Shown: positions 1 through 64,000 of the stretch, piece after piece
How positions within the stretch are numbered: the first letter of the stretch is position 1
How the letters are laid out: the number at the start of each line of letters is the position of its first letter
DNA from: Struthio camelus
Taxonomy: Eukaryota > Chordata > Aves > Struthioniformes > Struthionidae
Length of the DNA: 64,000 nucleotides
Assembly: GCF_040807025.1 (NCBI RefSeq)
Contig: NC_090942.1
Span: forward strand, 181,301,247 to 181,365,246
Direction: 5' to 3'
Position numbers and translations under genes: made by a program
Notes under the pieces: model-generated
The model's input: only the letters and a program-made list of their open reading frames with translations
The model's database searches: none
What the model was told of the DNA's origin: nothing

Positions 1-170
1 GGGCTCCGGAGCGCGAGAAGACTGCTCAGCGCGCGCGGGTTGACGTCGCTGCAGTGGAAGATGTGCACAGGGCCTTGCTTGTGCTGCGCTAGAATATGCT
101 GTTGGTCTAGGCAGACGGAGCGGTATAGGTGATGCTAGCGTGTGTCGTCTTTCTGCGTGATCTTGTCTCT

Positions 171-176
171 GAGTAG
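171..176 (+). promoter_or_regulatory. Tandem (NAGNAG) splice acceptor before exon 22
   Basis: GAGTAG gives two adjacent acceptors. Use of the second starts exon 22 at 177; use of the first adds one Arg codon and keeps the frame. The same hexamer precedes exon 22 at 21297-21302, 42459-42464 and 63603-63608. Confidence 0.6.
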
Positions 177-3100
177 AGCGGCAGAGCAGTTTCTGGCCAG
201 GACGGAACGCGTACCTACGGTGCCCAGCAAGACCAAAGGGACGCCCGGTGCCGCGTGTGCCTGTGAATGCAGGGCCATTGTGGATTTGGTGCTTGTGCCG
301 CTGGCTCACCACCACATGGCAATGGGCAACGATGCCAGAGCCCTTTATTACCTGCTGGAGTGCACGGCTGCCTACTTGCACGTCTCCGACAACTACCTGG
401 TGAGTCGCCCTGCTTGCCGGAGCCCACTGCACAAGGAGGCCTCTCAGTTGCCTTGTCCTGGGCAAACCGATTTTGCCATTGCACTAGGACGTGCCTCTGT
501 GGGGACTTGGGGCTGAACCGCTGGCGTCAGAGCCGGCCTTCTCCCCCTGTTTGCTTCTCCTGGGGCAAGGGAGGCAGGGCAGAGAAGCAGGACCTTTGCA
601 CAAGGCGCACGCGCCAGGAGGTGGTGCGAAGGAGCACTCGTGCCCGTGGGCTGTGTTAGGGTGGGCATCGCCAGGGGCAGATGTGTGCCCTCCTCAGAGA
701 GCTGCTGGAGGCAACTGGGAACGATGGGGCTGGATGCAGGCTCTGCACCGACGCTCACCTGCTCTCTGTGTGCTTGTTCCAAGGCCTTTATGAACCTGAA
801 GAAAGCAGAGGTTGTGAGGAGCTCAGCGGCTGAGAAAGCCGATGTGCTTCCCTGCTTTGAAGAAGCCACCTTCCTGAGCCTGAAAGGGGAGGTAAAGTGC
901 CAGGGAGGTTCTGAGGGCTCTCCTGGTGGGTGGAGTTGGACGCTTTTGTTGGGGGGTGGCGGCGGCGGCGATAGGCCTGGCGTTTTGAGGCACGGCCGCT
1001 ACCAGCGGCCTTTCCTGTGAGCGCTTCAGCCTCCGGCCAAAAGCGGTCGAGGCCCTCGGCCTTGGTTCAGGCAGAGCCTGGAAATGTGGTGCGTGCTCAG
1101 TCGGAGCCCTTTGGGACTGTCTGAAGAAGCCTTTCTCCTGTGCAGGTCTGCTACAACATGGGCTGCATGGACCTGGCAAAGAAGACGCTCAGCAAGGCAT
1201 TGAGCCTGCTGAAGAGAAAATTCCCCCTCACCTCAGCTGGCGTCGTCTTCCAGTTTCTGCTGGAGAAGTCAGAGCGTGCCTCCCACAGGAAGAACAGAGA
1301 GTCCTCCCTTCATCAAGAGGCAGGGTAAGAAGCCGAAGGGAAAGAGGAGGGAAGGAAGAGGCGTTTCCTGCGTGGTCCCGGGCACCTAGGCCCACACCTG
1401 CCTAGGCTTAAGCCCAGACTTTCCCTGAGCATAGGCGTTAGCACGGGGAAAGCTGCTGAGGGACCTGGAGGCTCCTGGGTGGGGGAGCGGGCACGTGTTG
1501 GCTTGTGGGGGGGGGTGGTGGGGGTGAGAGCAGAGAGATGTTCCCAGGGAGCACAGGCTGCAGAGGGGAAGGGAGCCGGCAGGGAGGAGCAGGACGTGGG
1601 CAGGGAGGGGTAAGTGGAGGGGAGGTGTGAGAACGAGGAAGCTCAGGGGTTGCAGCCAGGTGCAAGGCTGCCGTAGAACAAGCCTTTTCCTCGCGGTGCC
1701 CAGCTTTGCTTCGCCCTCCCTGGGCTGTAGTGCCAACCCGTTCCTGCTAGCAGCCATCTTTCCCTGGGGGTGCTTCTTGGCTCTGCCGCTTCCATGCCTG
1801 CAGCCCGGCCTGCATCAGCTGCCGCCCTGCTGGGAGCAGGTGCAGCTGCCTCCTCTGTCGCCCTGCTTCCCCTGGCCCTGCCTGACCTGGCACTGTGTAG
1901 CTAGTGGCTGTGGCCCAGCAGTTTCTCTTGTGTGGCAGGAGGGAGAGGCTGCCCTGGCTGTTCCGGCAGAGCCACTGCCTTTCCTTGCTGCGGCAGCTCT
2001 TCAGCCTGGAGGGCACTTCCAGCGGCCGGAGGCTCTCGCGCCTGGCAGCGCTCATGAAGGTCAACACGGCCGAGGAGTCTGAGGATGCGAGTCACGTGAG
2101 TGCCTCCTCTCTGCGGCAGCAGACGCGTTTCTGACATAGCTCCTTTCCCCTGGCCCGCCTAGAGTACCAGCAGGGTCTGCCCGGGGCGGCAAGAAGAGGC
2201 CAAACGCGACGGAGTGGTACCCGTCCCTGAACTTTGCTTTACAAACTTCCAGCAGACGTGCGTTGCTGCTCTTCTTGGTAGTCGCTCTCATGGCGTTTGT
2301 TTCGCCGTTGTAAGCGTTGGGCTGGTTGTGGCTTGAAGGCAGCACCCCGCTGGGGCCCTCGTCTCGCTGCGGCTGCAGTTAGCAGCGGCAGTCCTAAGAA
2401 CCGTTTGTCGTAGGGGTGAGAGCCCTGAGAGCAGAAGAGAAGAGAGCACCTGGCCGTTGGGTTTATGCCCTGAGCCGTCTAGGCCAGAGAGTCACCCTGG
2501 CGACATTCAGTCTTGTACAGTCTCCTGTCTGGACCGTTTTAGATCCTGTTGTCCTACATGGAATATGCGCGGTGCTGCCAGGACCTGGGCTGCCAGGAAG
2601 AGTGGCTGCAGTACGGGCGGGCGGCCATCCAGCTTAGCTCTGACGACGAGCTCTTTGGAGGAGGGGTATTAAAGGCTGCCAAATTTGCCCAGGCCCTGAG
2701 CCACCTGAACCTCAGCCTGGGGAATCTGCCCCTCTCTATCGACGTAGGTACGTACTGCCCCCGCTGCCTGCGAGAAGGCATCTCCGCCAAGGGAGCCTGT
2801 GCGAGCCTGCTGGTTTTCTTGGCAGGCTATCGCGCCAAGAGCCTGTGCATGGAGCTGGAGAGGCCCGACCTGGACTGCGAGGTCCTCGCCACGCTCTTTG
2901 CGGCGCTCTTTCTGCAGATGAGGTAATGCTGCTGCGGGACAGACTGCTGGTTGCGCAGGGTCAGGGGGCCACCTGAGATCCTTCTTGTGTCATTCTCTGC
3001 ACGCAGCAAAGAGGGCTGCTTGGTTTCTTATTGGATACTCGCTGGCCGTATGGACGCTGGTAAATTAAACAATGCCAAGGGCCGTGGCTGGCTGTTTGGG

Positions 3101-6100
3101 AGCGTGAGTGTGTGCTGTGAAATTGCTGGAACAGTTGCTGGCTCGGTTCTGGCCCTTGCCAGGTAGCGCTTGCCCCAGGCAATTCCCAGGCCTGGTTTAG
3201 GAGCGAGCCTAGCGCAGGGAGGCGCTCGTTGTGTTTGGGGCGCTAGCCACGTTTGGTTGGGTGGACGCGGGCCTTTCCACGCCACGCGGCACCGGTGCCC
3301 GAGACGGCAGTCGTCCAGGGGGAGGTCTCGAGAGGAGCAGTTTCTGAAGCAAACGCGTTGTCTGGGCGAGTGCGGAGGGCAGTGGGGAGCTGTGCGTGCT
3401 CTTTGGCCTGCTTTTCCTGACAAAGACTTGGATGGAAAGGGGAGTAGCTCTGCTCCTGGGCCAATGGGAAAGCACTGGCTGCATGGGAAGGATGCCTGAG
3501 TTTTGCTCCGGGCCTTGCCGTTTGGGCCGGGGTCACTGCAGCCTTTCTCCGGAGACTTGTTGCCAAAAGATGAACAACTGTCTGCTGGAGAAACTCTGAT
3601 GGCCTTGCCAGAAAGAGCAGCGCAGGGAGAGCGGGATGATGGGAAGGGGAGCGGGCAGCGTCCGGAGGTGGTGACTGGGCTCCCACCCCACGGAGAGGCT
3701 CCATGGCGGCTCGCTGTGCTCCTCCGCAGGTACCCAGAATGTGAGGAAGTGCTGCGCAGGCTCGAGAAGCAGGTGGCTGCAGAGCACAGCATCATTGGGC
3801 AGGCATACTTCTTCTCCTGCTGCTTAGACCTGTTGCTTTACGCTGGTAAGTGCTCAGTGAGGAGGGCCCCAGAGAGCCAGGAGGCTTGCAAAGATGCTTT
3901 TTCTCCTGCTACAACACGGGCGCCAGAGCCTCCAGCCATGCTTTCACTTCCTGGGCCGAGTCCTGGGCTATTTGGCTCTGGGTGTGTCTTTGTCTGTCTT
4001 TCCTGCCTGCCCTGTCTTTGTTTGCATGTTCTACACGTGATCCCAGAGTGATTTCAAAATGCTTGCAATTTCCCTCTTTGCTTCCCGCGTTTTGAGATTC
4101 CCCTTTCTGAAACCTCTTCCCAGGCTCACTCTGCTCTGGCTCCTGGGGAAGCGGGCGGGCATAGCAGTGCTGGGATGTGCCTGACCAGGAGGCATCTAAC
4201 AGCCTACGCTCCGGAGTGGCTGTCGCTTGCTGGTCAATGGCAGCGTGTCTCTGCCAGCGCTCGAAAGCTGCTGAAGAAAAGGGAATAGCTATCTGTGTGG
4301 CGCTTGACTAGCCCTGAGGAGCTAGGCTAGAACTCCAGCCCCTGCCTTGTTCCTGTTTGGTTTTTGCTTGCTCTCTGAGTGGTTTACCTGCCCAGAAATT
4401 CTCCAGCTGTGCTTCAGCTTTGTCCTGCTACGAATGCCCGAGGGAAAACAAGGCAGCGGAGGGCGGCACTGCTTCTCTGCGATGCATTTGTATTACAGGC
4501 TGGGAGTACAAGTCATTTGAAGAGTGCAGGAGCTTCGTTGAGCGGAACGAAGCAAACCGCATCCTCAGCTCGCACAACAGCATCCTGCTTGGACTGTATT
4601 CGTCCCTGGCTCTTTGGTAAGTTACAGAGGTGCTTAGACTGGCGACAGGCCCAGGCAGTGGTTCTGGCAGGGGAGGTGGGAGCTCTGGGCCTGTCGTGTC
4701 CCCCGTGCCCTGTCCAACAAGGCGGCCGTCGCTGGGGTGTAGAGTACTTGATCAAGTACTCTACAAAACGTGTGTGTGTGTGTGTGTTTCTCTCTGGATG
4801 GTGTAGGTTTGGAAGGCTTGGGCAGTGGGCCGACTTCCAGAAGCCCTTTGAAAAGGCCAAGAGGCTGCTGAAGAGAGCTGACGCCTCCGTTTTGGCCACC
4901 CAAGCATGCAGCCGGCTCCTGGAGTGCTACACGCTGGTGCTGCGGAACGACCTTGAGCGCAGCTCGGCGAGGGCCCGGGAGAGCCGCAGCAGGGCTCTAA
5001 GGGTGAGGGAAGAGGAGGAAGGGGGTGTGCATGCTGTGAGGGGACTCTAGGGAAAGCTGTGTTGCGAGCAGCAGTGGATTGGCAAGGCCGGGGCGAAGGA
5101 GCCGTGCTGGGATGGAGCCAGGCTAGAGGCGGAGTGTAGTAGTGGGTTAGAGAGGAACATGGCAAGAGGCTGCTCCCCCATGGGGCGGCAGCAAGAGGTG
5201 GTAGAGAAGGCAGTGAGGTGACGGGGGTCTTCCCGGGCACGTGAGGATTCCCTTGTGGGAGTGGGAATGGGAATGGGAATGGCCTGCAAGACAGGAGAAG
5301 AGACTTGCACAGCCATGAGCTAGCTAGTGAGCCCTGCTGAAATGCCTGCTGCATGTGAGGGCTTATGGCTCGGGAGAGACTTGTGTGGTATCTCAGCCTT
5401 GCTAGCTGCGTGCTCCTTGTGCCTTTGCGGCTGCTTTCCCCTTTGGGGAACAGGTGCAGTCCTCAGTGCCAAGCCATCGCCCAGCTCGATGACTTCTGCT
5501 GACGTGCCTCTCCATTGTTCTCTCGGTAGCTTGCGGAAGAGGTTTTTGCTCGGTGCTCTACAAGCCCCGTCTTCTACCCCAGAGCCTACCATCTGAAAGC
5601 GTACGTTTTCTGCATGCTGGGTAACAAAGACCAGAGCCTGTGGTGCCTCAGGCAGGGCCTCCAAGCCTGTGAAGTGAACGGCAACCTCCTGGAGAAGACT
5701 TGGCTGGAGATGAGCGCTGTAAGTGGATCCTCTTTGCCTCTGAGTTGCTCCCTGGGCAGAGGCTTGGCATGCCCTAGGAGAGGGTGGCGCGGACCGTACT
5801 CCGGCAGGTCCACGTAGGGAAAGCCCCCAGCGAGCTTCAGGAGCGTGTGCTGAAAGTCCTTGGCGAGCTGGTAGGGGCTGCTAGCCCTCCTCAGCAGGAG
5901 GGCAGTGGCAGCTGCGATGCCCTTCCCTCAGGAGGGGCTGGAAGGACACGCGAGGGAGCAGCACGCGCTGCAGCACGCCGCTCCTTCCCAGCATCTCTGC
6001 TGGGCTGAGGAGCGGTGGAGTGGAATCTCTGCCTCTCCCTTGAGCCAGCTCTGGGAGCCAGCCTGAACCTGTGAGGAGGCTTCCTTTGCGTTCCCTCTCC

Positions 6101-6407
6101 TTGCCCTCCCTGATAGGCTTTTGCAGCACGGCAGATTGGGTGATGGGTGGAAGAAGCTACTGCGAGAGGCCTCGCTTGCCTTCCCGGACCGCTCGGGGGA
6201 CCTCCCGTTCTTCGCGGCTCTCACTTGGGCTTTTGTTTTCCTCAGGAGCGGTGGTTCACTGGCAAGGGCCCCGTGGGAGACTTGTGGCTGGAGACAGCGC
6301 CACGTTTTCCCCAGCTGAAGCAAGCAAAGCCTGAAGTCTGTAGCTCCAGGTACCTGCTGAAGCTGCCAGCACGGCCGAGCGAGGATGCTCTTCCAGGGAT
6401 TAAATAA
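177..6407 (+). CDS. ADCY10: Gene A: ADCY10-like soluble adenylyl cyclase, 3' exons 22-32 only
   Basis: Coding exons: 177-399, 784-891, 1146-1324, 1939-2095, 2543-2747, 2826-2922, 3730-3845, 4499-4616, 4807-5002, 5530-5718, 6246-6407 (stop TAA 6405-6407). The 5' exons lie left of the window. This is the C-terminal half, which in ADCY10 is a TPR-like helical region of unclear role. It was recognised by match to human ADCY10: VLVPLAHHHMAMG (human VILPLAHHFLALG), RALYYLLE (human KALYYFLE), ILLGLYSSLALW (human LLLGLYSSVAIW), and VFYPRAYHLKAYVFCMLG (human VFYPRLYHLMAYVCILMG). All introns are GT...AG and the frame stays open to the stop. Compared with B and C it encodes Thr rather than Ala at residue 1097 (codon 364-366), as does D. 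The orthologous family is clear; the symbol is by similarity, since there are at least four loci here. Confidence 0.9.
4738..4765. repeat. 28-bp perfect palindrome, gene A intron 29
   Basis: Half-site TGTAGAGTACTTGA followed directly by its exact reverse complement, no spacer. It sits four bases before the GT tract and about 40 bases before exon 30. Confidence 0.9.
4770..4787. repeat. (GT)9 microsatellite, gene A intron 29
   Basis: Nine GT copies between the palindrome and the splice acceptor of exon 30 (4807). It is the shortest allele in the array. Confidence 0.95.
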
Positions 6408-6408
6408 A
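6399..6408 (+). terminator. Gene A poly(A) signals overlapping the stop codon
   Basis: ATTAAA (6399-6404) and AATAAA (6403-6408) overlap each other and the TAA stop (6405-6407). If used, cleavage 10-30 bases on would leave a 3' UTR of only a few tens of bases; a GT-rich stretch near 6430 could be the downstream element. No other AATAAA was noticed in the spacer. Confidence 0.7.
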
Positions 6409-8547
6409 GAAACACTGCCATCATCTCAGCGTTCTGTATGGCATAGTCACAGAGCACAGCAAGAGGACGCTGAAGGCGTGCCATGAGAGTCTCTGGCGTG
6501 TGGTTTATTGGGAAAGCTAGGCTGCGGGGAAGCCACCACCCCCGTTGTTAGTGCTCACAAGAGTCGAGGGCTGTAAAGCAGCGCAAGAAATTCTCTCCCC
6601 CTCGCCCTAGTGCAGGTCCCTGTGGCGCTGTGTAAGCACTCGAGCCGGCTGCAGGAGGAGCTTGGCCCTGGTGTAGGGCCAAGTGGTTGCTGAGGTGGGG
6701 AGGGTGGGAGGGTGTTTTTCTGCAAGCGGGACTGGTTTGAAGTGTTCCCCAGTCAGAAAAGTCAACAGCACTAGCGGCCTCATCCTGTTCCCCTCTCTGG
6801 TTGATGCGGATGAAAGCTCCTTAGTGGAGAATGGATGTACGTGTGTCCATATAGAAGTAGCCAAGAGGGATGCCCCTGTGGGCAAGGGCGCTGCTTGTGC
6901 TGGGGTCCCCCCAGCTCCCAGCTGAGCTTGCCTTGGGGAGCAGCCAGCCCTTGCTGCTCACTGACAAGAGAGACCATTGGCCTAGGCGTCCTCACGCTGC
7001 TGCGCGCTCTTCCTGAGGAGGCAGAGCAAGCCTGCTCGGTCGGCCTGCATCATCAGTCTCCCATACGGGTGACCGCTTTGCCTGCCTCGTGGGAAGGAGG
7101 AAGGAGGAAGCGTGTGAGCTGGGCTGGCAAGCAGCGTTCCGAACCTGGGCCTGGCTCGGTGTGTGTGCCTGGCTGTCGCCAGCAGGTTGCAGTTGGGTGT
7201 GCTAGGTGCAAGTGACTTGTGCTTGCTTGGGAGACTTTTGTGGGCCCCGAGGCAGCAGGGGGAGCCTTCTGGAGGCAAGAAGAGAGACCATCTTGGTAGC
7301 CTGTCTCTGAGTGCTGAGGCAGCAGGAAAGAAGGCAGGCTGGTTTCTGCTGTCAAGTGCTCTGCTGTTTGAGGTCAGCAGCGCAAGGGCACAGGCTCGTC
7401 TAAAGCACCTGGTCCCCCAGGCCTGGGAGGGGCTGGTGCTCCCTCGCCTGGTCATTGCCTGAGGGAGAGGCACTGACAGTGCCAGAGGGACACTGGAGGC
7501 TGCCTGGGCAAGCAGCCGCTGAGTGTCACCGTGTGCCAGGCATGCCAACTCGTGCAGCTGCTCCTCTGCGCGACTGGGGAGAAGGGCAGCTTTGGCGTGC
7601 ACGGAGCGTGGCCTTGGCTGCTAGCCCTCGTCCCCCGTAGAGCCCGGCTCTCCTCAGTGCTGCTGCTTTGGTGGCAGGGAGAGTTGTGTGGCTCGGGGCA
7701 GCGGCTAAGGTGGACGGGGAGCTGCCTTTGCCTAGCCGGAGGCAGGTGCCCTGCGTGAGCCAGGGTGCCCAGCGTGGCTCTGTTTCCCTGGGGCATGCAA
7801 GGTTTACAACAGCGTTCTCCCTCGGAGCAGGGACCTGGAGCTGCCTCCTGCTGCGGCTTTTGACTTTGTCTTGCCCTCTCTGATAGGCCGGTGCGCCGTG
7901 GTCCTGGCCCAGCCCTGTCCATCTCCTGCCGGCCTCCCCCAGGAGCCGTGCGGATGGAGGTTGGCTGTGTCCCCCGCTCCCGCCCCGGAAAAGCCCCACT
8001 TCTTTTTTGCAAAGAAATACAAGTCCTCCGAGCAGCCCTGGAAACGCCCAGCTGCGTGCTGCAGTGGCCGTGCTTTTGGGGAAGCCTGGGCTGCTGGCTG
8101 TCAGCATGTCTGTTAGGCCCTTTGCGCTTGGGAACGTGGGAACCAGCTGCTGTTTCGGCCACGGGTGGAGGTCAGTCGCTGTGCGAGCCTCCTTCAGCTC
8201 TGTACGGGAGACAACTGCGTCGCACTAGCCACATCTGAGCAACCGGCTCGGCGTAAGGAGGGAGCTGGGGTAGCTTCCCGGCAGTTGCTGGGTAAGCGGT
8301 GCCTTGCAGAGGCTGTCACTGTTAGCTGGATCAGCGTACGCAACAGTGTACAGGTAAATGATGACACGCGGCCAATGTCACTGTGACCCGATTGTGACCC
8401 CCCCCCCGGCCCCTTGGTGACAGAGGGCCAGCCGCGCCTCCCCAAGGCCAGTGCGCAACGCTGTGCAGTGGTGTCTGGTCGTCCTCCCTGGTGGGCACGG
8501 TGGGTCGTCTTGTACTGAGGTACCGCAGGTACCCCAGGGCGCTGACG
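6409..8547 (+). promoter_or_regulatory. Spacer A-B, presumed promoter of gene B
   Basis: About 2.1 kb with no recognisable gene. It holds the gene A 3' end, a hairpin and G-quadruplex motif (6661-6712), then unremarkable GC-rich DNA. Near the start codon there is a CCAAT (8372-8376), two TGTGACCC copies just downstream, a run of ten C, and paired GGTACC sites close to 8520-8535. No TATA box was seen. Promoter function is inferred from position only; the transcription start is unknown. Confidence 0.5.
6661..6712 (+). other. Perfect hairpin plus G-quadruplex motif downstream of gene A
   Basis: CTTGGCCCT (6661-6669) and AGGGCCAAG (6675-6683) form a perfect 9-bp stem with a 5-base loop. Fifteen bases later four GGG runs with single-base loops (6698-6712) make a compact G-quadruplex motif. 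It lies about 250-300 bases past the poly(A) signal. Confidence 0.75.
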
Positions 8548-11214
8548 ATGTCTTGTGCCTGGGAGCGAAGGTCAAAGCACTGCTCAGAACTGGGGGAAGT
8601 AGCTGCTTACGTCCCCGACCTGCTTTTGTCTGAGGACTTGAAGCAGGAGAACCGTTGCGTTCAGAACTTCCACGGAGTGCTGCTCTTTGCGGATGTGTCA
8701 GGTGGGTCAAAGCGTTATGAAGGGCGGGCACTGAGGAGGAGTCACCGACCCGAGCCGTTGGGACTTAGCGGGCCTTTTGGAGCCCTGGTCGTCCCGCCTG
8801 TGGTAGAGAAGGGGTCAAAGGAGATGTCGTTTGCTGCTGAGGTCTTCCGCTTTGGGGAAGTAGCGCTCGGACGTAGCCGAGGTCACAGCCCGGGGGCGGT
8901 CTTTGCTGCCAGCCGCACTGCGGCCTGCTTGTGGTCACCCGTCTGCTCAGAGCAGTGTGCGTAGGGAGCTCTGAGGCTGCCGGAGCAGCAGCTTGGGCCC
9001 GCGCTGTTGACTGCAGTGCTCTCTCCGGAGCTTTGGGGAGGTGTGAGGTGGGCCAGGCTCTGGCTCATGGAGGCCTGGGAGAGGAGGCCTGGCTGCCTTG
9101 CCTCACCCTTGTTAGTCTTTGTCAGGGCAAACTTGGAGGAGCAGCTGCTGCGCAGAGGAGCTGGCTTGCCAGGTGCTGCGTTAGTTGGCAAAGGCCTCCC
9201 GGGCTTTCTAGCTAAGGGTGTTGCCTGGCTGTAGGCAAGAGGGGAGGCAGCCGGGGGACGTGCTGGAGGGTGGCAGCCAAGTGCAGGAGCTAGGCGTAAC
9301 GGGTAGGTGTGAGCATGGGGAAGGCGCCCGTCAGCGAGCGCTCAGAAGCGCGGGTGGAATTAGAGGGCTGTGCCCGCTGTCAGGGGCGCGCCCGGGTTCT
9401 CCCGGAGCGTGGTTCTCTTGGCTGGCTGAAAGCGACGTGGAAAGTGCCAGGTCCTTCGGCCCCGTGGACGCGTCCTGATTTCTTTGTGCCTGTGTGTCCC
9501 TGTTGCAGGTTTCACTGCTCTGACAGAGAAATTCAGCCAGAGCATCAGCAGAGAGCGGGGTGCGGATGAGGTCACGCAAACCCTCAATCGCTACATGGGT
9601 GACATTTTGGAGGGTAAGTGCCGTTCTGCAGGACTGTGTGGGATTGGGCCACGACGAGAGAGAGGTGCTGGGCAGCCTGCTGCTGCTGCTGCCGCCGCCT
9701 CCTCCTTGCGCGGGCTGGAGGTTCCCATGGGGCTGAGAGCAGCCGAGAGCAGCTGGGCTCTTCTGGCAGGTGCTTTCTGCTCCCCACGAAGACTAAGGAG
9801 GTGCCCGCTTTCTCAGCACCCACCCTTGGCCTTGTGGAGTGACCGCTGTTCAGTGATGGAGGAAGATTTTGCTGGTGTTGGGGCGCAGGGGGGAGCGGGG
9901 GCATCTAGCCAGTGTTAGTGCCCAAATGAGCCGGGGATGGGGGCGCTGACCAAAGTGTGCATTACTTTCCCTGGGGCCTTGTCACAGGGCACAGTAGTGT
10001 AGGTCCCAGGGCTGTGGTCCCTGTGAGCAGTGCAGCTGCTACGTTTGCTAAGTTGTGCCCCCAAAGCACCGCTGCTCTTGTGCTGCTGTCTGAGCAGAGC
10101 GGCTTGTCCTGCGGCCTTCCTGAAGAAGGCCTAGCTGCAACTCTTGTTGTGCTTTTTTTTTTCGCTCCGCAGAGCTGCTGGCTTTTGGTGGAGACATCTT
10201 GAAGTTTGCAGGTACGTGTGCGTAAAAGAGACGTGGCCTCGTCTGCTGCAGCTGCAGACGAGTGCTAGGGGAGAGGGGAGACAGAGCCGCGAGCTGGCAG
10301 AGCCCCGAGGGGTGGCTCTGCTGGCACGCAGGTGCCCAGGGGGAGCTGCCGTCCCGGGCCCTGGCGGCGTGGCTGCAGTTGTAGCTGGCGGGGCAGAGGG
10401 GGAGGTGTGCCTGTGGCCAGGGTGCTGTAGTTGAGGAGGATGCCTTCACCCAAACGCGTTTTCCCTGGCACGCCTGCTGGCTTCCGCTGCCCCGGCAGGT
10501 GGGTGCAGGTCAGGGAGCGTCAGGTGTCACGAGAGCCGTCCCTGTCCCCTTGCTTTCCCCAGGGGATGCTGTGCTGGTGCTGTGGAGAGCAAAGCACACG
10601 CAGCTGAGGGACACCATCAGCCTGGTGCTGCAGTGTAGCCAGCAAATCCAGGAGAAGTACAGGATCCGTGAGACGGACGTGGGTCTGAAGCTCCGACTGA
10701 AGATAGGTACGGGGAGTGCCGGATTAGGCTGCTGCGCGTTCTCAGGCAGGCGTTCACGAGCTGCCTGCATGCAAAGTGAGCCGGTGGCCGGCCAACGTGC
10801 CGGTGTGGGGCCCCTGATGAGGACCCCCTCCCCGGCCATGATCAGTCCTGAATCCATAAAGTGGGTGCTTCGCCTGCACTCGAAGCAGTTGAGCGGGAAG
10901 AGCCCGGCTCCAGGGCTGAGCTTCAAAGTTGGCCTGGGAGGAGCTGAGCTGTGGCGGGCTGTGGAGGTAAAAATGCTCTCTGCATCAGTTGTGCTTGTCT
11001 CTCACCAGGGATCTCTGCAGGGCATATGTCCCTCCTGACTGTTGGAGACAAAAAGCAGCAGCACTTCCTGATCCTTGGCCAGGCCGTGGGTGAAGTGTGG
11101 CAGGCCCAAAACCTTGCCAATGCAAGTGACGTGATCCTGTCACCCAGCTGCTGGGAGCTCTGTAACCAGAACAAGATCAAGACCAAGAGACTTAAAGGCC
11201 AAAGCGCTGTGAAG
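8548..11214 (+). other. Gene B exons 1-5: class III cyclase domain C1
   Basis: Residues 1-216. The first metal-binding Asp is D49 in LLFADVSGFT (human D47, FVDISGFT). The second is D101 in DILKFAGDA (human D99); K97 matches human K95 of the bicarbonate site. K146 in LKIG matches human K144. The other bicarbonate ligand, human R176, is W178 here (codon 11098-11100, in AVGEVWQAQN; human AVDDVRLAQN). K97 is in a 39-nt microexon (10173-10211) and D101 in the next exon. Human residue roles come from published sAC structures; the alignment was made by eye. Confidence 0.88.
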
Positions 11215-25893: not shown

Positions 25894-25939
<46 letters not shown>

Positions 25940-27557: not shown

Positions 27558-27558
27558 A
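27549..27558 (+). terminator. Gene B poly(A) signals overlapping the stop codon
   Basis: Same arrangement as gene A: overlapping ATTAAA and AATAAA across the TAA at 27555-27557. Confidence 0.7.
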
Positions 27559-47053: not shown

Positions 47054-47095
<42 letters not shown>

Positions 47096-48713: not shown

Positions 48714-48714
48714 A
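48705..48714 (+). terminator. Gene C poly(A) signals overlapping the stop codon
   Basis: Same arrangement as genes A and B, across the TAA at 48711-48713. Confidence 0.7.
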
Positions 48715-53800: not shown

Positions 53801-56800
53801 TGCCTTTAGGTTACAGGCATGGAACGGATGTCTCTGTCGGAACGCGAAGACATCTTCTCCAAGTTTACCCGAGCCCAGCTGAACTACAGTTCTCCTGAGG
53901 CGTCAGGTGAGGCCCATCTTCATGATGTTCTGTGGCTGCCCAGAAAGGTGGGGGCGGGCTTGTTCAGGGGCCAGCGAGGAACGCCCTCTGCCCTCTCCCC
54001 CTTGCAGTTAGCATTTGTGCCTTTGGCCCTGGTGCGCTTCAGCGGAGGCACTCGCTGCTTCCCCCTCCTTCCAGGGGCCTGCTCTGGCTGAGCACCTGCA
54101 GGAGGAAGAAACGTGCAACTGGAGGAGACTTTCTCTCCCTGAGTTCCAGTGCCAGCCCCTGCTTTCCAACTGCTTTTCCCTAGGCAGGCTCGTAGTGCCA
54201 GCCTGCCAGTCACCGCCTGGATTTTCCTTCCCTAGGCATCCTGAGGCCTGCTGTTACCCTGGCCCCTCGGCATGCTCTGGGGAAGCTGCTGCGGAAGTAC
54301 GTCCCCGCATCTGTTCTGAGGAAGGTATGGCCACAGCTGCCGGGAGCTGTGTTTTTTTTTTTGCCCCGAGGGGAGGATTTATTCCTTCCGCGGAGAGCGC
54401 GGGCTGCTGCCCACGTGTGGGCTCTTGCTTGGTGTTTGCTGGAGGCAGTCAGCTCTCGGGGAGAGCTGGCTGCTGAAGGTGTCCCGCTCTCGTCTTCCAG
54501 ATTGATGACAGGCAGCCCCCGGACTACTTGTCCGAGCTACGGCCGGTCACCTGCCTCTTTGTCAAGCTGCAGTTTGCTGCCGATGTCAACTTAACGCAGA
54601 TCTGCAAGGCTATCCAGGACAGCAGCGTGATGATGTTGGAGATCATCCGGCCTCACAAGGGCGAGATCAACAAAATCTCCATGTTTGATAAAGTGAGTGT
54701 GGGGGAGGAGCCCACCCCGCAAAAGCGTGGGCAGCAAACGAGAGGGCAGTGGCTCTCTCGCTCTACTGAGCAGTGGGGAAAGGAGAAGCAGCTCTGCCTC
54801 GGCGCTGGGATCAGCACCCTCTGGCTGGGGGTTGCCCTGAAGCTCTGCTGCTCTCGGCAGAGGCTCGACTCGCACGGCATGAGCCGTTTGCCGTAGGCGT
54901 TGTCACAAGCTGTGCTGCCCCCGTCCTTGGCAGGGCTGCACGTTCCTGTGTGTGTTTGGACTCCCTGGAGAGAAGCTGCCCGACGAAAGCGTTCACGCCT
55001 TGGAAAGCGCTCTTAAAATCTCCAAGGCGTGCTCCTCGAGGCCTAGGAAAATCGAGTGAGTGGGGAGGCGCGTTGCCCGGGACTGCGCGGGGGAAGGAGG
55101 GAGGGATGGTTTCTCAGCGAGACGTGCCCTCTAGCTTGGCCTCCTCTGTCCCTGGGAGGAAGGAGACAGTGCCCTGAGAGGTGCCCTTCTTCCCCGCGCC
55201 GAGGAGACGTGCTGTGGCCGGCTGGAGTCAGGGACTTTCCGCCCGTCCCAGCTGTGAGGCCTTAGGGGAAGGGCTGAAAACTGCCTGGCTGCTCTCGGGA
55301 GCCCCTTTCACACGCTGCGGAGCTCTGCAGGTCCCCGAGGTCTGCCCTGCCAGGGCGGGAGGTGGTGCGAGGGGAGCTGGGTGAAGGGGTGAAGGTAGGC
55401 GGGCAGGCAGGCCTGTGCGCGGGTGCTGCTGAACGCCTGTTGCTCTCCGTGTGTGTCAGGGCCGTGTCTGTCGGGGTTACCAGCGGGACGGTGTTCTGCG
55501 GAGTCGTAGGCCATCGCGTGAGGCACGAATACACAGGTACGAGGTGTTTGGCTGAGGAGTGGGTGGCTGGGCTGGGTCTGTTCAGCCGGAGCAGTGTGCC
55601 AAAGGAAGAGGCAGAGCGGCAGGGAACAGCCTGTTGCCCGTACGTGCTGGGCTGGGACGAGGCCTTGGCCTGTGGCCTGTGGCCTGTGGCCTGTGGGGAA
55701 CGAGGGAGGCAGGGCGGGCGCCACTGCGGTGCGGGGGACCGGGCTCAGAGCCTTGTTGTTCCTGTTGGTTGTGCTGCCAACGGTTTGGGGCTTGCCTGTG
55801 CTGGAGGCGATGCAGCCGTTGGCGGTGAAGGGTGGAGCGGGTTGGTTTCATAGGTACGTGAATGCGTGCTCTCTCTCTGTGGCAGTCATTGGCCAGAAGG
55901 TGAATCTGGCAGCCCGGCTGATGGAGCACTACCCTGGGCTGGTGTCCTGTGACGCAGCGACGTACGCAGCCTCTAGGCTGCCCCGATGGTGCTTCAAGGA
56001 GCTGCCGGAGGCAAAGATGAAGGGGGTTGTCGATCCTGGCCCCGTGTATCAATACCTGGGGGTGTCGGCGAAGTCGTGAGTGTCCTGTTTGAGCGGGCTG
56101 GTTGGGGGCAGGGTGGCACACAGGGTCCAGTCTTGGTCCGCCAAGAGGAGTTGTGCAGAGCTGGCCCCCGCCCACACCTCCCATCGCTGGGGCTGAGAAG
56201 ATGGAAAGGCAGAGCACGGGTATGCTTTTGGCCTGCCTACGCTGGGGCCTCCTGCTGTAAGGAGACTGGGAGTGATGCCGGAGGGGTGGAGAAGGCTTTT
56301 AGGTGTCCGTAGGCACAGAGGGGCCTTGCAGCCCCTGCCCAAACGGCTTCCAGCTGTGCTTTCTGCCCTGTGCTTGCTCCATTGCGCGCAAGACTAACGC
56401 AGTGGCAATTCTGCCCCAGGGAGGCGTTCTCCCAGCTGCTTCCGAGCATGAGGCTCCCAGAAAGCTTTTGGTCAGGCCAGGACTCAGTTCCTGAGTGCCT
56501 CCTGGTGAAAGTTCAGGTGTTCCCCCGGGCCAGGGTTTGGCATCCTCTTTGGAGGACGTTTGGAAGGTTGACGTTGCCGTCCCCTTGCAACTTCAGAAAA
56601 ACTCAAGCCCAAGGTGCCTGGTGCTTGGCGCCTTGGCCCAAGAAGTGACCCTTGTCGTCCTGTTGCACGTCGTGGCTTGCAGTGTTTTTTCTTGCCCGTC
56701 TTTGCCTTGACAGCAGCTGTTGCAGGGCCCCGCTTCTAGAAAGCGCTGCCTGTGAGCACAGGCCGGGGGACCAGAGACTTGTTTGGCTTGTCCTGCGGGG

Positions 56801-59800
56801 TGCAGCAGTGTGCTAGCCAGCGGCACTGCCTGGCTTCTTGCTCATGTCTCTGCTTCCTTGGGCTTTGGCCTGTGGCGCTCGAGTCTTGATGCTGTCCGGT
56901 GTCCCCCTGTGGCCGTTGGGCTTCTTCCTGGCTGCAGCTTTGCTAGTGCTCGTTTGGTGTTTGCGCTCTCTGCTGGGCCAGTGGGAGCGTGGGCAGGATT
57001 TGCTCCGGCTCAAAAGAAGAGCGGGCACCCGGGAGCGTGTACCCTCAGCTCCAGCTCCACGCGTGGCTCTACGTCCTCCAGCTTCTGCCTACTTAATTGG
57101 CTCTTGTTTTTCTCTTCCCGCTGCTAGCGTGTTTGGCATGGATGTTATGAAGGAGAGGTCCGGCTATTCCCCGTTGCTCGGTAGGTGGAGAACGCCTTGG
57201 TCTGCCGAAGGCCGATTTGTTGCCGTCGGTACCTGTTAGTTCCGCTCTGGGAACGGAGAAGCTTTTGCGAGGGATGGTGTTGCCCGGCGTGGCCCTAAGG
57301 GTTTGGTGCATACCTTGGCTCCTAGCTGGTTCCTGTCTTTGGGGTTGGGCCGCAGCTAGAGGTGGGAAGCAGGGTGAGGCGTGCACCGGGTGCTCCCTGC
57401 TGTGCTGCATAGCTAGCGTGGCGGGACCTTTCCAGTGTGCAGTTGCTCACAGCCTCAGGGCTAAAGCGATGCCCGTATTTGGGATCGGGGAGGAGATTTC
57501 CTTGGGTCTGACTGACCCGCTGCGGCGGCGAGAGAGAAGGGTGCCGACGGCTGTTTGCTTTCCAGCTCGCTGCAACAGCTCGCTTTCTTGTTTGCCTTCC
57601 CAGGTCGGGAGGAGGAGATTGCCCTCTTTGAAAGCTACTTGAAAGCCTACGTGGATAAGAAAGCAAGCCACATCATGGCGTTTGAGGGCGTAACGGGCTC
57701 TGGAAAGAGCCATTTACTTACGGAGCTTGCCTCTTTAGGCCAGGCTGCTGGGCTCAGGTGAGTGTTGCTGACCGGGACCTGCGGAACGCTTTCGCTGCCC
57801 AGCCGCTGATGTCCGTGGGCTACTGGAGCCCCTCTGCCCGGGTGCGTGGCCCTTGGACTGCAGCATCCCTGCAAGGCCTGCAGGAGCTGCTGCTGAGGAG
57901 CAGCTGCGTGCTCTCCTGCTCCCTCCTGAGGGAGCTAGAGGTGGCTCCTGGAGCCACTGCTGTTGAGCTTCCTTCTTTGGGCCAGGCACCAAGCAAGGTA
58001 GAGCCCGAGCTCAGTCAGGGCTTTGGCCGTAGCCCCAGAGCCAAGAGAAGAAACCCAAGTGGCCCTAGATTCCGCCTCTCCCCTAGAGCTTAGTGCGAGA
58101 AGCCTGCGGCTGCTTGGGTCCCTCTCTGAATCTCAGTGCCTTTTGCTTCTGCATGGCAGGGTAGTGGCTGTGGAAGTGCTGGAGCTCAACCTGAAGCAGG
58201 TCTACTCTGCCATGCGCATGGTGCTGGCTGTGGCCATGGGCCTGCAGGCCTGTAAATCGTGCAGTGCCAGACAGCTCGTCCTGCAGGAAAAGCTCCAAGG
58301 GCTGGTGGAAGAGAGCAGCTACTGCCTCCTCAACGTGCCTTTCGTCGTTAAGGTGAGAGCGAGAGGCCTCTGTGGCCGTGGCGAAGGCCTGCTTGTGAGC
58401 CGTCCTGTGGCTGTTGTGGTTGGGACACTGTGGCTGGGGAGTGGGCTTAGCTCCCTGGTGGGAGCAGCAGGAGGGTAGCACAGGCTGTGCTTCTGTTTGT
58501 GGGTCCAAAGAGGGGGGCGAGGGGGCCGAGGGGGCCCCTTGTTAGGGGTGAGTGCAGGTGCCAGGCTGCTGCAGGCAGTTCCTGGGGCCTTGCTCAGCAG
58601 CCTGGAAAGGGCATTGCAGAGAGGCTTTGAGAGGGGGCTGATGAGCTGGTGCTGAGTTCACTGGTGCGGGAGCAGCCTGCTCCCTCGCGCGATTGCCATG
58701 GCGAGGGAAGAAGCTCTTCTCCCGCCTCATCCCTCCCTGCAAGAGCTCTGCCAGAGACCCTCAGCAGAGGGCCTCCGTTGTAGGCTCCCGGTGACGTCCG
58801 CGCTGCGTCTCCTCTCCACTGTGTGGGGGAGAGGTAAGATGCTGAGGGCAACAGAGGCGTTTTGCTCGCTTGGACTTGCGTGGTGGGCAGGTGTGCTGAA
58901 CCGCCCTGAAAGGCTGTTGCTCTGTGACTCTGCTTTTCCGGCCAGTTTCCCCTGTCGGAGAAGGTGTCCAAGATGAGCGACGCTCAAAGGACAATGGAAC
59001 TGGAGTTGGTTTTTAAGAAAGTGCTACAGAAGGTGAGCCGTTCTCCCCATCCTGGGTCAGAGAAGGAAAGCAAGGCCGCAGGCTGAGGGCTCTGCAGGAG
59101 AGCGGTGGGAGCTGGTGGGAGGACAATGTACCGGGGTCATTGCCCTGCAGAGGCTGAACTCCCCGTGCCATGTCCCCTGATAACTTTCCTCCTGTGAAGT
59201 TGGAGGGCATGTGCTCAGGGGGAGGAGGAACGGTGTCTTTCCGTGCCACCGTGCCCGAGAGACCTTAAGAGTCTCGGAGCACGGAAGAGCGGGTGAGATT
59301 CTGAACGAAGAGGTAGCTGGGGAGAGGAGAGCGACTTCTGCGCGTCCTCTGTGTGGGGAGAGGCCGGCCAAAGTTTGCCCTGTGGAGGATGCTTGAGAAT
59401 CCCTCAGAATCCACCCAGACCAACGTGTTTGTTTCAGCTCGTTGAAGACGAACTTGTCCTGTTTGTCATCGACAACGCGCACTACATCGACTCTGCCTCC
59501 TGGGCTGTTATGTCGCGCGCGCTCAGAGATGTCCCGCTCTTTGTGGTCATGGGCTTTGCTCCCGCTCGCTCTAGAAGACAGAGGCTCTGCGAAGCTGCAG
59601 CAGACATCATGAAGTTGCAGCAAACGACCCACGTTCATCTGGGAGAGCTGAAAGCTTCAGCTGTTGTGCAGAAAGCCTGCCGGGAGCTGGGAGTTGTCAG
59701 CGTGCCCAGGGACCTAGAGACGTAAGTCCCAGGCGGGGCCTCGGAGCTCTTCCCGAGGGGTTGACCCTCTGCAGAGAGAGGGCAGGAGGGAACGAACATG

Positions 59801-62800
59801 GTGGGGCAGTGGGGGCGATTTGCTGGGGCCGAGGCTCTCACTGGTGCTGGGGAGGATCTAGGCTGTTGGGGCCAGGAGAGACGAGGCTGGCAGCTCTGTG
59901 CCTTGGGCACTGTCCGCGACTCTTTTCCGGCGCGTTCCAGCAAGCGCTGTATCTTCCGGGCAGCTCAGATGCCAAAGGCAGTGGGAGTGCTGGCCTGTTC
60001 AAAAGGGAGGTGTAGCTGTGGCAAAGATGCTGGTCTGAAGCGTGTCCCACCTTGCTTTGCCTGTGTCAGTCCCTGCTGGATCTGCTCCTTTCCAGGTTCC
60101 TGATGCAGAGAAGCTGCGGGATCCCATATTACTGCGAGGAACTGCTGAGCGACCTTAAGCGCCACGACATGCTCTTGTTCCACCTGCTGCGGAAGGGCGA
60201 GAAAACGGAGGACAAGTGGGAGAGCCTCTTCAGTAAGCACCTTTGTGGCTGACGGCCTGGCTGCTGCGGCCCATCTTCCAGAGCACGTTGTTGCCCTGGG
60301 CTTCCCCTGTGAAGCTGGCACAGGCTGGTGTTGCAGCAGTAGAGGCCTTGGCCTGGCTCAGGCGTGGGCTCCTGCATGCCTTGCTGCTGGGATAGCCTAA
60401 GCACAGGCTGGGGAGTTTGGGTGGCTTTGTGAGGCGAAGCAATGCGGACGGGGCAGAAAATTGCAAAGGAGGGGAAGAGACGCTCCCTGGCACTAAGCTC
60501 AGCCCTGGTATTGTCTGGAGGCAGCATGAACGGGGGCGGTTATTGTGGAGCAGTGCGGAGAGTGGCGTGGCTGCAGTGTGCCTTGGGTGCAGCCGCGCGG
60601 TGGATTTATGCTGCCACGGACCGCAGGGCCCAGCTGCTGTGAGACCTGCTCGGGGGATGAATGCTAAAGGGTGGAAGATGGAGGGCAAGTGGGAGGTCAC
60701 GGCCTGAATCGTCTCCCTTTTTGAAAATCGCTTTACGCTGCTCTCTTGCTCCGCTCAGCTTCTGTAACGGAGGCTTCCCCTGCCGCAGCCTCCTGGAGCT
60801 CCAGCGCGGGGAAGGACCGCAGGGTGTGCACCATCAGACCTGACGTGAACCTGCAGAGCATCGTGCTTCCCTCCACCTTGAAAGGTGAGGGGCCGAGCCC
60901 CGCTGCGGCGGCTGGCGGCTGCACGGAGGTTCTTTCCCGGGGCGTGGGCTAGAGAGAGGCTGCGCGTCTGCGTGCTGCAGAGTTACCCCTCTCAGCTCTG
61001 GGGCTCTGCTGGGAAGGTGGCTCTGGTCCCGCTGGTTCTTCCCATTTCTCGGGGTGCTGGATGGGAGGCTGGGAATGAGCTTCCCTGCCCTCTAGCTGTG
61101 ACCTTGCGCAGTGAGCCTGGCAGAAACGTTCCCCAAGGAACATGTGTTTCTCCTTTTCCCGGTCCTTGCTTCCTGTGCTTGCAGGAGGAGCAGAGCCGTG
61201 TTGGAGATACGTGCCCTGGGTTGCGACTGCCCAAGGGGTTTGGTCCCTAGGAAAGAAGGCTACAAATGTAGCGTCTGGTGTGGTGAAGCTAAGGCAGCCT
61301 CGGCAGCCTCAGGCTTGGGAGAGGGCAAGAGAGAGACCTGTGGCTTGTTTTTGACAGGGATTGCGCTGGCTGAGGTGGACAGCATGAAGCCCTCGGAGCG
61401 GATGGTCTTGAAGTGCGCAGCCGTCATCGGGCCGACGTTTACCACCGAGCTGCTGTTACGCCTCCTTCCCAGGTGGACCAGGACCAAGATGAACAAGGCG
61501 TTGAATGTCCTGGTGAGAGGCAACGTCTTGAAGTGGCTGAATGCTGGGAAGGTGCCAGAAGGCAGCAGTGTTCCCGCCGAGGGGTCCGCCACCTCTCTGG
61601 AGGAAGAGAGCGGTAAGTGGTGATAATGCGCCCCCGGGAGCGTGGTAGGCTCCTGCTGCTCCCGGCTGTGTGGCTGGCGGGGCTCGCCAGGGCACGCTGC
61701 ACTGCCCCCTCCGGTGGTGTGTAATGCCCAGGGCCGGCCTTGCTTCTGCTGCCAGCAGCCTCGGCAGCTGCTTGCGGGGGTGCGGCTGAAGGCTGTGCGT
61801 TGGGAGGGAGAGCAGGGCGGGAGCCTGTTGCGCAGGCTGTGCTGGTGTCGGCAAGGCAAACGGGTCCCTTTCACCCTAGCGCTGCGAGGCTCCGAGTGCA
61901 GGAGCGCTGGTTTCCTGCCAAGGATCCACGCCAAGGCCTGTCTTTCGTCCCCCGGCTGTGGCCCCAGCTGTGGCTGATGTGAAGGCCCGTTGCCTTTCAG
62001 GTGCCCAGAAGCGGTGCTTGGGCGAGACCGAGAAGACGGCGAGGCTGCAGTCTGGCGTCCTGACCTTCTGCGCCCCGCTGCTGCGGGAGGCTGCCTACGA
62101 GCTGTGGCCCAAGGGACAGAGGGTGGCCATGCACCGCAAGTGCACGGCCTTCCTGGAGAGGCAAGCGCACAAGTGCCAGTGCTGCGGCGGAGGGGACTTT
62201 GTGGCCTTCCACCGCTTGGCCCTCGGCAGCGCCCAGGAGGCAGAGAGCTGGGACGACCGCGCCAGCGAACGCTACTCGTCCAGCTGGGAGGCCTGGCTGC
62301 TCAGACAGGAGGAGCTGAAGAGGGATGAGCTCCGTGCCGCTCCGGGTATGCTAGCTGCCGTGCTTTGGAGCCTGGGCCCTCCACACTGTGCTTGCGCAAT
62401 TAATGGAAGCGCTCCTCTGTCTCAAGCGCCGTCCGCAGAAGCGTTTTGCTGGAGCCTAGGGATGCTGTCAGCGCAGGGGAGAGGCTTCCCTAAGACTAGC
62501 TTAGTCCTCCACTGAGGCCAGCTGCACCAGCAGAGCCATGCTGTGGGCACAGCGTAGAGCCTCTCTGCCCCGGAACGCCCTCCTGCATTTCCCCGGAATG
62601 ACCAGAGAGCAGCCCATGTCCTTGCAGTGACAAGAGCCTTGCGGTGCACCCCCCGGCCCCGCAGGCTGAGGCGCCTTTCCTGGTGGGTGTGCTACGCTTG
62701 CCCAAAACATAACAGCCCTGCCGGGAAGGCAGCTCTCGGGGGAAGGGGCCAGGAAGAGAGCTGCCGTCGGTCCCTTTGACTCTGCTCTCCTCCCCTTTCT

Positions 62801-63831
62801 GATCGAGCGTGGCAAGATGCAGCTCTTCCCGCGTGTGAGGTGAGGAAGCGTTTAACTCGTGCTTTGTTTCCAGGTACTGCAAAAGCTCTGCAGAAAGAGA
62901 AGAGCTTCCTGGAGGAGACTTTTCGGTGAGGAGAGGAGGTTTTGGTTATGTTGGGAAGTCAGCGGGCCCAGGGTCTGCAGAGGGGGCAAGTGGAGTTTGC
63001 AGTTGTGCCTGCTGGCTGTGACTCTAGCTCAGGAAAGAGCTGGCCTGCAGGGTGGGAGCTGGGATGGGGTGGCCCTGGAGATGAGCCTCTTGGAGGAAGC
63101 CAGTGGGATCAGGGTGACCCAGTGGGGGCAGGGTGGAGCCAGCCCTGCCTTCCTAGCTGTGGGAGAGCAAAGTTGCGAGGTGTGCAGGGGCAAAGCAGCC
63201 AGCGGGAGCAGGGGGGCTGCTGGAAGGTGACAGAAAGGCCTGCTTGACTTTCTCCCTGGGGCAAAGAGCAGCGTTGCTCCAGAGCAGGGTCAGCAAAGGC
63301 ACCAACAGCATCGCGTCCTCGTGGATCTTGTTACCGCTAAAGCCAAAGGAAGAGTTTGCTAGGGCTTGAAAGGGGCGATGTTGCTCCTCGTCCCCGTTTT
63401 GCCCTGCCTGGCCCCGCTCGCCTTGGGCTCCGGGGCTCCGGAGCGCGAGAAGACTGCTCAGCGCGCGCGGGTTGACGTCGCTGCAGTGGAAGATGTGCAC
63501 AGGGCCTTGCTTGTGCTGCGCTAGAATATGCTGTTGGTCTAGGCAGACGGAGCGGTATAGGTGATGCTAGCGTGTGTCGTCTTTCTGCGTGATCTTGTCT
63601 CTGAGTAGAGCGGCAGAGCAGTTTCTGGCCAGGACGGAACGCGTACCTACGGTGCCCAGCAAGACCAAAGGGACGCCCGGTGCCGCGTGTGCCTGTGAAT
63701 GCAGGGCCATTGTGGATTTGGTGCTTGTGCCGCTGGCTCACCACCACATGGCAATGGGCAACGATGCCAGAGCCCTTTATTACCTGCTGGAGTGCACGGC
63801 TGCCTACTTGCACGTCTCCGACAACTACCTG
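50852..63831 (+). CDS. ADCY10: Gene D: ADCY10-like soluble adenylyl cyclase, 5' exons 1-22 (runs off window)
   Basis: Exons: 50852-51005, 51813-51917, 52477-52515, 52867-53010, 53313-53518, 53810-53906, 54236-54324, 54501-54692, 54934-55055, 55460-55536, 55886-56075, 57128-57180, 57604-57757, 58160-58352, 58946-59032, 59438-59721, 60096-60232, 60759-60884, 61358-61612, 62001-62345, 62874-62925, 63609-63831. Exon 23 would start about 215 bases past the edge. The frame is open throughout. Three residues differ from B and C: His instead of Tyr at 649 in the Walker B segment (codon 59480-59482), Thr instead of Ala at 950 (codon 62144-62146), and Thr instead of Ala at 1097 (codon 63796-63798). W178 (53402-53404) and N647 (59474-59476) are shared with the other copies. 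Confidence 0.9.
55667..55694. repeat. Four copies of GGCCTGT, gene D intron 10
   Basis: Four-copy allele, as in gene C. Confidence 0.9.
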
Positions 63832-64000
63832 GTGAGTCGCCCTGCTTGCCGGAGCCCACTGCACAAGGAGGCCTCTCAGTTGCCTTGTCCTGGGCAAGCC
63901 GATTTTGCCATTGCACTAGGACGTGCCTCTGTGGGGACTTGGGGCTGAACCGCTGGCGTCAGAGCCGGCCTTCTCCCCCTGTTTGCTTCTCCTGGGGCAA
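63433..64000 (+). repeat. Tandem repeat unit 4 (partial)
   Basis: Start of a fourth period, cut by the window edge inside intron 22 of gene D. Over its first ~370 bases it matches unit 1 better than units 2 and 3. Confidence 0.95.

Follow-up and report, generated by a model that had tools for sequence, protein, structure and literature searches.

Soluble adenylyl cyclase (sAC) is encoded in human by ADCY10, a single gene that spans about 100 kb and lies between MPZL1 and MPC2. In the mammalian enzyme (PDB 4cm2, 4clf, 4oya), a P-loop ATPase comes after two cyclase domains of class III. Here, we analysed a stretch of 64,000 nucleotides of ostrich (Struthio camelus) DNA, referred to below as the window, which occupies positions 181301247-181365246 of the 225.6-Mb contig C1 (NC_090942.1) in an assembly of 1.45 Gb and 262 contigs. 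The window lies within a head-to-tail array of sAC genes. The ostrich enzyme shows the same succession of domains as its mammalian counterpart. However, its gene measures 19 kb, is present in about 140 copies in the assembly, carries a tryptophan codon at position 176 and is not located between MPC2 and MPZL1.

Long near-identical tandem units, homogenized site by site, are also a feature of ampliconic germ-line families and of gene-bearing macrosatellites. Like such families, ostrich ADCY10 has multiple near-identical intact copies. It differs from them in that the unit is a large multi-exon enzyme gene, found at several sites on large contigs other than the candidate sex chromosomes, and in that the copies read are intact.

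In sAC, R176 is described as the switch that frees D99 upon bicarbonate binding (PMC12250328). The metal and ATP contacts of the enzyme are named in PMC12867704. According to the same source, pH but not bicarbonate acts on the sAC of sea urchin, in which R176 is replaced, and on that of salmon, in which K95 is replaced; in human sAC, exchanging K95 or R176 for a neutral residue lowers both catalysis and the bicarbonate response. A 2026 survey reports that sAC is missing from all but a few birds (PMC12867704). Its occurrence in birds is patchy, pseudogene exons having been predicted in turkey, duck and pigeon, and its synteny is not conserved between vertebrate groups (PMC6660944). The expanded gene families of the Asian king vulture include ADCY10 (PMC11043450), and chicken has a gene named ADCY10L1 (PMC12192435). 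What is described in other birds (PMC6660944, PMC11043450) concerns the same gene, likewise without conserved synteny and with one other expansion noted, but the excerpts of these two accounts give no array structure, comparable copy number or residue change. Neither the enzyme family nor the amplification of genes is new in itself. We found no report of an ADCY10 array of this size, of a relocation of the gene or of an R176W replacement in the open-access literature searched.

A head-to-tail array of ADCY10 genes

BLAST comparison of the window with itself returned unit offsets of 21,126, 21,162 and 21,144 bp, identical to the periods that a first-pass annotation of the window had assigned to its ~21.1 kb unit. 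Positions 1-42856 align with positions 21127-64000 at 99.68% identity and positions 1-21694 with positions 42289-64000 at 99.65%; the window corresponds to 3.03 head-to-tail units. Differences among the units amount to a few dozen substitutions plus indels, partly located in short GT and GGCCTGT repeats. Each unit contains one ADCY10 gene on the + strand, with 32 exons, a coding sequence (CDS) of 4,821 bp, a product of 1,606 residues and a start-to-stop length of 19.0 kb. The two complete genes of the window measure 19,010 and 19,016 bp, in line with the 19 kb announced by the first-pass annotation, and a spacer of ~2.1 kb separates the genes in each unit.

The gene structure was obtained using a dynamic-programming model with GT-AG introns followed by hand curation. 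Exons 12 and 32 were accepted partly through their likeness to human ADCY10, and the reading frame is broken if exon 12 is left out. A looser model was rejected, as it added doubtful small exons and overran into the next copy. The two complete window copies show three coding differences, all synonymous. As compared to the third copy (29698..48713), used as the reference gene, two coding differences were found in the copy at 177..6407, one of which changes an amino acid, and two in exons 1-21 of the copy at 50852..63831, both of which do. The stop codon of the reference gene overlaps an AATAAA motif.

The identification of the product as soluble adenylyl cyclase, already made in the first-pass annotation, is borne out by its catalytic part. 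A search of the PDB gave human sAC with E = 1.6e-118 and 187 identical residues out of 391 aligned (47.8%, residues 15-405); the next kind of protein was bacterial CyaB (9.5e-11). Pfam Guanylate_cyc matched two stretches, which means that the chain carries two class III cyclase domains, and AAA_16 (E = 3.6e-9, residues 488-667) indicated a P-loop ATPase after them. The C-terminal open frame runs on to residue 1,606, as compared to 1,610 residues for human sAC, and this region may resemble that of the full-length human enzyme.

Distribution and probable homogenization of the copies

Copies were counted in the assembly with a 40-base probe taken from exon 5, allowing up to three mismatches. With probes from exon 1 and exon 32 added, three widely spaced exons of the gene were covered, and 100 places were listed per probe. 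The exon-5 probe gave 140 matches (25 forward, 115 reverse), the exon-1 probe 139 and the exon-32 probe 141. No match was obtained with reversed-pattern control probes. At ~21.15 kb each, 140 copies represent close to 3 Mb, or 0.2% of the assembly. The exon-5 matches listed (100 of 140) are on C1 (10), C8 (2), C17 (14), C33 (9), C70 (7), C173 (7) and C176 (51). Four further copies were found on C8 at 0.72-0.78 Mb (C8:721575-781286) with the exon-1 probe, and others on C194 (643 kb) and C223 with the exon-32 probe and an allele probe. Altogether, copies are present on at least nine contigs, and five clusters are carried by four large ones (C1, C8 twice, C17 and C33). C70, C173 and C176 (142, 139 and 1,119 kb) contain a copy every ~21-23 kb along most of their length, and the C17 contig starts within its array.

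The array to which the window belongs holds ten genes (C1:181,245,802-181,457,177) and extends beyond both window edges, as the first-pass annotation had stated. Its figure of at least four genes agrees with the two whole and two partial copies of the window but is a large undercount, and the amplification that it reported is far more extensive, given the ten genes of the array and the ~140 copies of the assembly. A simple assembly artefact is not supported for the C1 array, since all ten of its copies are mutually distinct within 3,040 bp. Such an artefact is also disfavoured by the two defined array edges in DNA of other composition and by the existence of clusters ~3-4% apart. The copies on the small contigs may nevertheless include artefacts of this kind.

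Over ~3 kb, the mean identity within sites was 99.83% for C1, 99.84% for C17, 99.59% for C33 and 99.77% for C8. The C8, C17 and C33 copies are 99.45-99.57% identical to one another, and the C1 copies 97.13-97.34% identical to them. In the 3-kb alignment, 104 fixed differences distinguish the C1 copies from those of C8, C17 and C33, and the C1 copies group together in a single clade (support 1.0). The 0.7-Mb cluster of C8 is a third lineage, ~4% from both others; the spacing of its four copies suggests the duplication of a two-copy block 38,704 bp apart. On C33 (369-538 kb), one exon-5 allele is found in five of the nine copies, every second one, like a two-unit higher-order repeat. This alternation is the pattern that unequal exchange in two-unit steps would leave.

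Integrity of the genes and constraint on the coding sequence

Exons 3-8 were free of frameshifts and stop codons in the 30 copies that were fetched (10 from C1, 2 from C8, 14 from C17 and 4 from C33), and each of these exons was bordered by AG and GT in all 30. One C8 copy and one C176 copy contain 32 of 32 exons and one stop codon, which is terminal; a one-base indel in the C8 copy alters the last residues only. Together with the two complete window genes, this makes four complete genes out of four, from three sites, that can be read to their end. An array of pseudogenes is rejected for the copies read, on account of the open exons 3-8 and of the four readable genes.

Comparison of the window gene with the C8 gene showed 2.07% divergence and 2 gap openings in exons as compared to 3.34% and 42 gap openings in introns. 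The ratio of nonsynonymous to synonymous divergence (dN/dS) of the window gene was 0.49 against the C8 gene and 0.53 against the C176 gene. Residues 1-470 had a dN/dS of 0.27, as compared to 0.56-0.62 in the remainder. The coding sequence is under constraint, which is clear in the cyclase part and weak elsewhere. Overall, the copies have the appearance of functional genes maintained by purifying selection.

The position of the bicarbonate switch

Alignment with human sAC showed that D47, D99, K144, K334 and T405 are conserved in the window gene. N412 and R416, located by counting onward in exon 11, are also conserved. K95 is kept but the residue corresponding to human R176 is a tryptophan, so that the mammal-type K95 + R176 pair is incomplete. 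Trp176 was found in 30 of the 30 fetched copies and in one copy of the third lineage, from the 0.7-Mb cluster of C8. It can also be assigned to the 100 listed places of the 140 exon-5 matches, because the Trp codon lies within the probe and these places match the probe without mismatch.

Ostrich sAC resembles the enzymes in which one bicarbonate residue is neutral and the other catalytic residues are kept and, as in sea urchin, it is K95 that is kept and R176 that is lost. Trp is not among the replacement residues (K, R, N, M, V, S, Q, T) listed for such enzymes in the excerpted source. From this comparison, mammal-type bicarbonate gating is not expected in the W176 enzyme, the activity of which may prove to be weak. 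Because Trp replaces the switch arginine while the catalytic residues stay, the enzyme is predicted to be controlled, probably, by pH or by its amount instead of by bicarbonate.

The interval between MPC2 and MPZL1

An MPC exon was found on C1 at 105.50 Mb and two other MPC matches on C3. The C1 exon was taken as MPC2 because the two C3 matches presumably belong to MPC1. MPZL1-like exons (E = 4.8e-48) lie ~25-29 kb downstream of the MPC2 exon, on the opposite strand. In the 30 kb fetched at MPC2-MPZL1, no ADCY10 match was obtained at E < 0.1. This empty human-type site is 76 Mb away from the C1 array. Since the interval is without ADCY10, the gene has therefore moved. Its origin as a retro-copy is ruled out by the 31 introns kept in complete copies.

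Edges of the arrays

The GC content of the C1 array is ~61%, as compared to 36% and 45% in the two AT-rich 10-kb stretches that flank it. The left edge is located 524 bp upstream of the start codon and the right edge 1.47 kb downstream of the stop codon. Both adjoin same-direction sequences, 85% alike over 214 bp (L040:3511-3722 and L041:2183-2394), which are copies of a dispersed repeat (506 candidates at first look, of which 40 were scored). Insertion of the array at repeat copies, or exchange between them, would account for this arrangement. A flank also carries what we take to be the 3′ end of a bird CR1 element, and a 1.85-kb inverted pair, 91% identical, is present across the two flanks (L040:642-2492 and L042:1-1821).

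The C8 pair at 7.5 Mb ends ~200 bp beyond the stop codon, beside a NUF2-like exon identified by PDB sequence search (Pfam returned no family). Upstream of this pair, pieces 75-79% like the unit spacer (L043:1674-1884) are perhaps what is left of a decayed old copy. The site may be old, because it adjoins NUF2 and carries these remnants on its 5′ side; that it is the ancestral site is not shown. The first C33 copy is truncated after exon 1 at a GC-rich minisatellite with a period of ~31-32 bp (C33:363501-367064), which touches this 5′-truncated copy. No pair of edges, such as a mobile unit would leave, was found to be common to these sites: in unit phases, the edges are at 8024/7879 for C1, 8077/6605 for the 7.5-Mb site of C8 and 8778 for C33.

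Strand skew and possible germ-line context

On the coding strand, the introns show an excess of G over C (skew 0.156, z = 13.8) and of T over A (0.150, z = 10.3). In five 10-kb stretches outside the array, two beside it and three near MPC2, the corresponding values ranged from -0.128 to 0.016 and from -0.103 to 0.053. The observed/expected ratio of CpG was 0.50 in the introns versus 0.19-0.22 in the same five stretches. Such strand skew is known from germline-transcribed genes.

The C-terminal family of CATSPERB gave five matches at C5:65519508-65526644, one of which contains an internal stop. Most birds are reported to have lost their CatSper genes and, among the birds surveyed, only two palaeognaths had them (PMC6660944). 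In addition, one cyclase gene scores equally on C40 and C41, as a large region shared by sex chromosomes would, and these two contigs are candidate sex chromosomes. Together with the CR1 end, these features fit a bird genome and probably a palaeognath one.

Discussion

The best reading of these data is, in our opinion, that of a relocated and amplified sperm cyclase selected for its dosage, to which we give a probability of roughly 0.55. ADCY10 would have left its position between MPC2 and MPZL1 and been amplified head to tail. Arrays would have been seeded at several sites, reaching ~140 copies. Unequal crossing-over and gene conversion, that is concerted evolution, would keep the copies near-identical at each site, the sites having drifted 3-4% apart. 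The many parallel transcription units would most likely provide high sAC in male germ cells and thereby cyclic AMP (cAMP) for sperm. The W176 enzyme would no longer be bicarbonate-gated, and pH or dose would control its output. A dosage or germ-line role, already suggested in the first-pass annotation, would fit the intact constrained copies, the intron skew and the retained CATSPERB. That annotation, which was drawn from the window alone, does not mention the move away from MPC2-MPZL1, the presence on several contigs, the homogenization at each site or the R176W replacement.

Several points weigh against this reading. About 100 of the 140 copies are on small unplaced contigs, and the copies read are 30 of the 140 over six exons (3-8) and four over the whole CDS. 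Constraint outside the catalytic part is weak, as judged from the dN/dS values of that region. The W176 enzyme might itself be weak, because neutral replacement of K95 or R176 is reported to lower catalysis in human sAC (PMC12867704). Finally, the spacer is skewed as well (0.101 for G/C and 0.126 for T/A), so that the skew is no property of the gene body alone.

The main rival, which we regard as possible but on balance unlikely, is that the arrays are real but passive. They would then be a gene-bearing macrosatellite that has grown through unequal exchange; a single copy or a few would be expressed, and recent homogenization alone would keep the others intact. Indeed, copies within a site are 99.8% identical, and intactness alone proves little because they are so young. 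The weak constraint outside the catalytic part, the repeats or minisatellite adjoining the sites and the copy-by-copy alternation of two alleles on C33, as left by two-unit unequal exchange, all agree with passive arrays. However, lineages that differ by 3-4% still show constraint, with a dN/dS of 0.27 in the catalytic part and almost no indels in exons, and the four complete genes, taken from three sites, are all readable.

It is less probable still that the copy number was inflated in the assembly, with uncollapsed haplotypes and unplaced array contigs recounting the same copies, so that the true haploid number would be a few tens. The small contigs that hold the ~100 copies (C70, C173, C176, C194, C223 and perhaps others) would be the source of such recounting; those of their copies that were compared share a lineage with C8, C17 and C33, and the start of the C17 contig within its array points in the same direction. 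Against this, the large contigs alone hold 39 copies among the matches listed (C1 10, C8 2+4, C17 14, C33 9), in distinct settings, and collapse of near-identical copies would bias the count the opposite way. We consider it very improbable that an ampliconic arms race, in which arrays compete through meiotic drive or between sperm, underlies the amplification instead of a demand for more enzyme in the individual. Such a race would suit the extreme, recent and multi-site amplification of a gene whose product is used by sperm in mammals, but no match is on C40 or C41 among those listed (100 of 139-141 per probe), the product is an enzyme that makes a diffusible signal, and no distorter-responder pair turned up, though no search was aimed at such a pair.

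A broader proposal can be tentatively made, which we hold to be rather doubtful at this stage. A bird lineage may have rebuilt sperm cAMP signalling on a massively amplified, bicarbonate-independent W176 sAC, its many arrays being homogenized at each site and its copies kept intact through selection for total dose. In addition, the absence of sAC reported for most birds may in part be due to assemblies that drop GC-rich repeats. The ostrich arrays raise the questions of whether sAC has truly been lost by other birds or is hidden in GC-rich arrays that were not assembled, of whether sperm cAMP is tuned by gene dose, and of whether an sAC with a Trp switch is pH-gated, constitutive or weak. They are also well suited to studies of the way in which a gene unit of 21 kb is spread from chromosome to chromosome and homogenized at each site.

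Features of the window and additional observations

The features of the window are collected in Table 1. ARAGORN found no tRNA in the 64 kb.

Table 1. Coordinates of the ADCY10/sAC copies, their parts and the spacers (positions in the window).
Feature	Position	Strand	Basis
3′ part of an ADCY10/sAC copy, exons 22-32 (gene starts before the window)	177..6407	+	exon mapping
Spacer; end and begin phases of the C1 array (7879 and 8024) fall inside	6408..8547	.	exon mapping and edge comparison
Complete ADCY10/sAC gene, 32 exons, 4,821-bp CDS, 1,606 aa; single stop, terminal	8548..27557	+	exon mapping
Spacer	27558..29697	.	exon mapping
Complete ADCY10/sAC gene, 32 exons, reference copy	29698..48713	+	exon mapping, Pfam
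Exons 1-11, catalytic domains C1 and C2 (introns included)	29698..34932	+	Pfam Guanylate_cyc, 2 stretches
Exon 5, Trp at the human Arg176 position (bicarbonate switch)	32159..32364	+	alignment to human sAC
Exons 12-14, where the P-loop ATPase region begins; the AAA_16 match extends into exon 16	35985..37209	+	gene model, Pfam
Spacer, 2,138 bp	48714..50851	.	exon mapping
Exons 1-22 of the fourth ADCY10/sAC copy, continuing past the window	50852..63831	+	exon mapping

Two observations concern other contigs. The type of dispersed repeat found at the C1 array edges occurs eight times on C234:9949-86037, with a spacing of ~10.4-11.1 kb, and this contig may be a tandem array of something else. On C15, two nearly complete cyclase domains at 18.37 and 18.46 Mb are each contained in one open frame (584 and 411 aa) and are perhaps intronless, single-exon genes.

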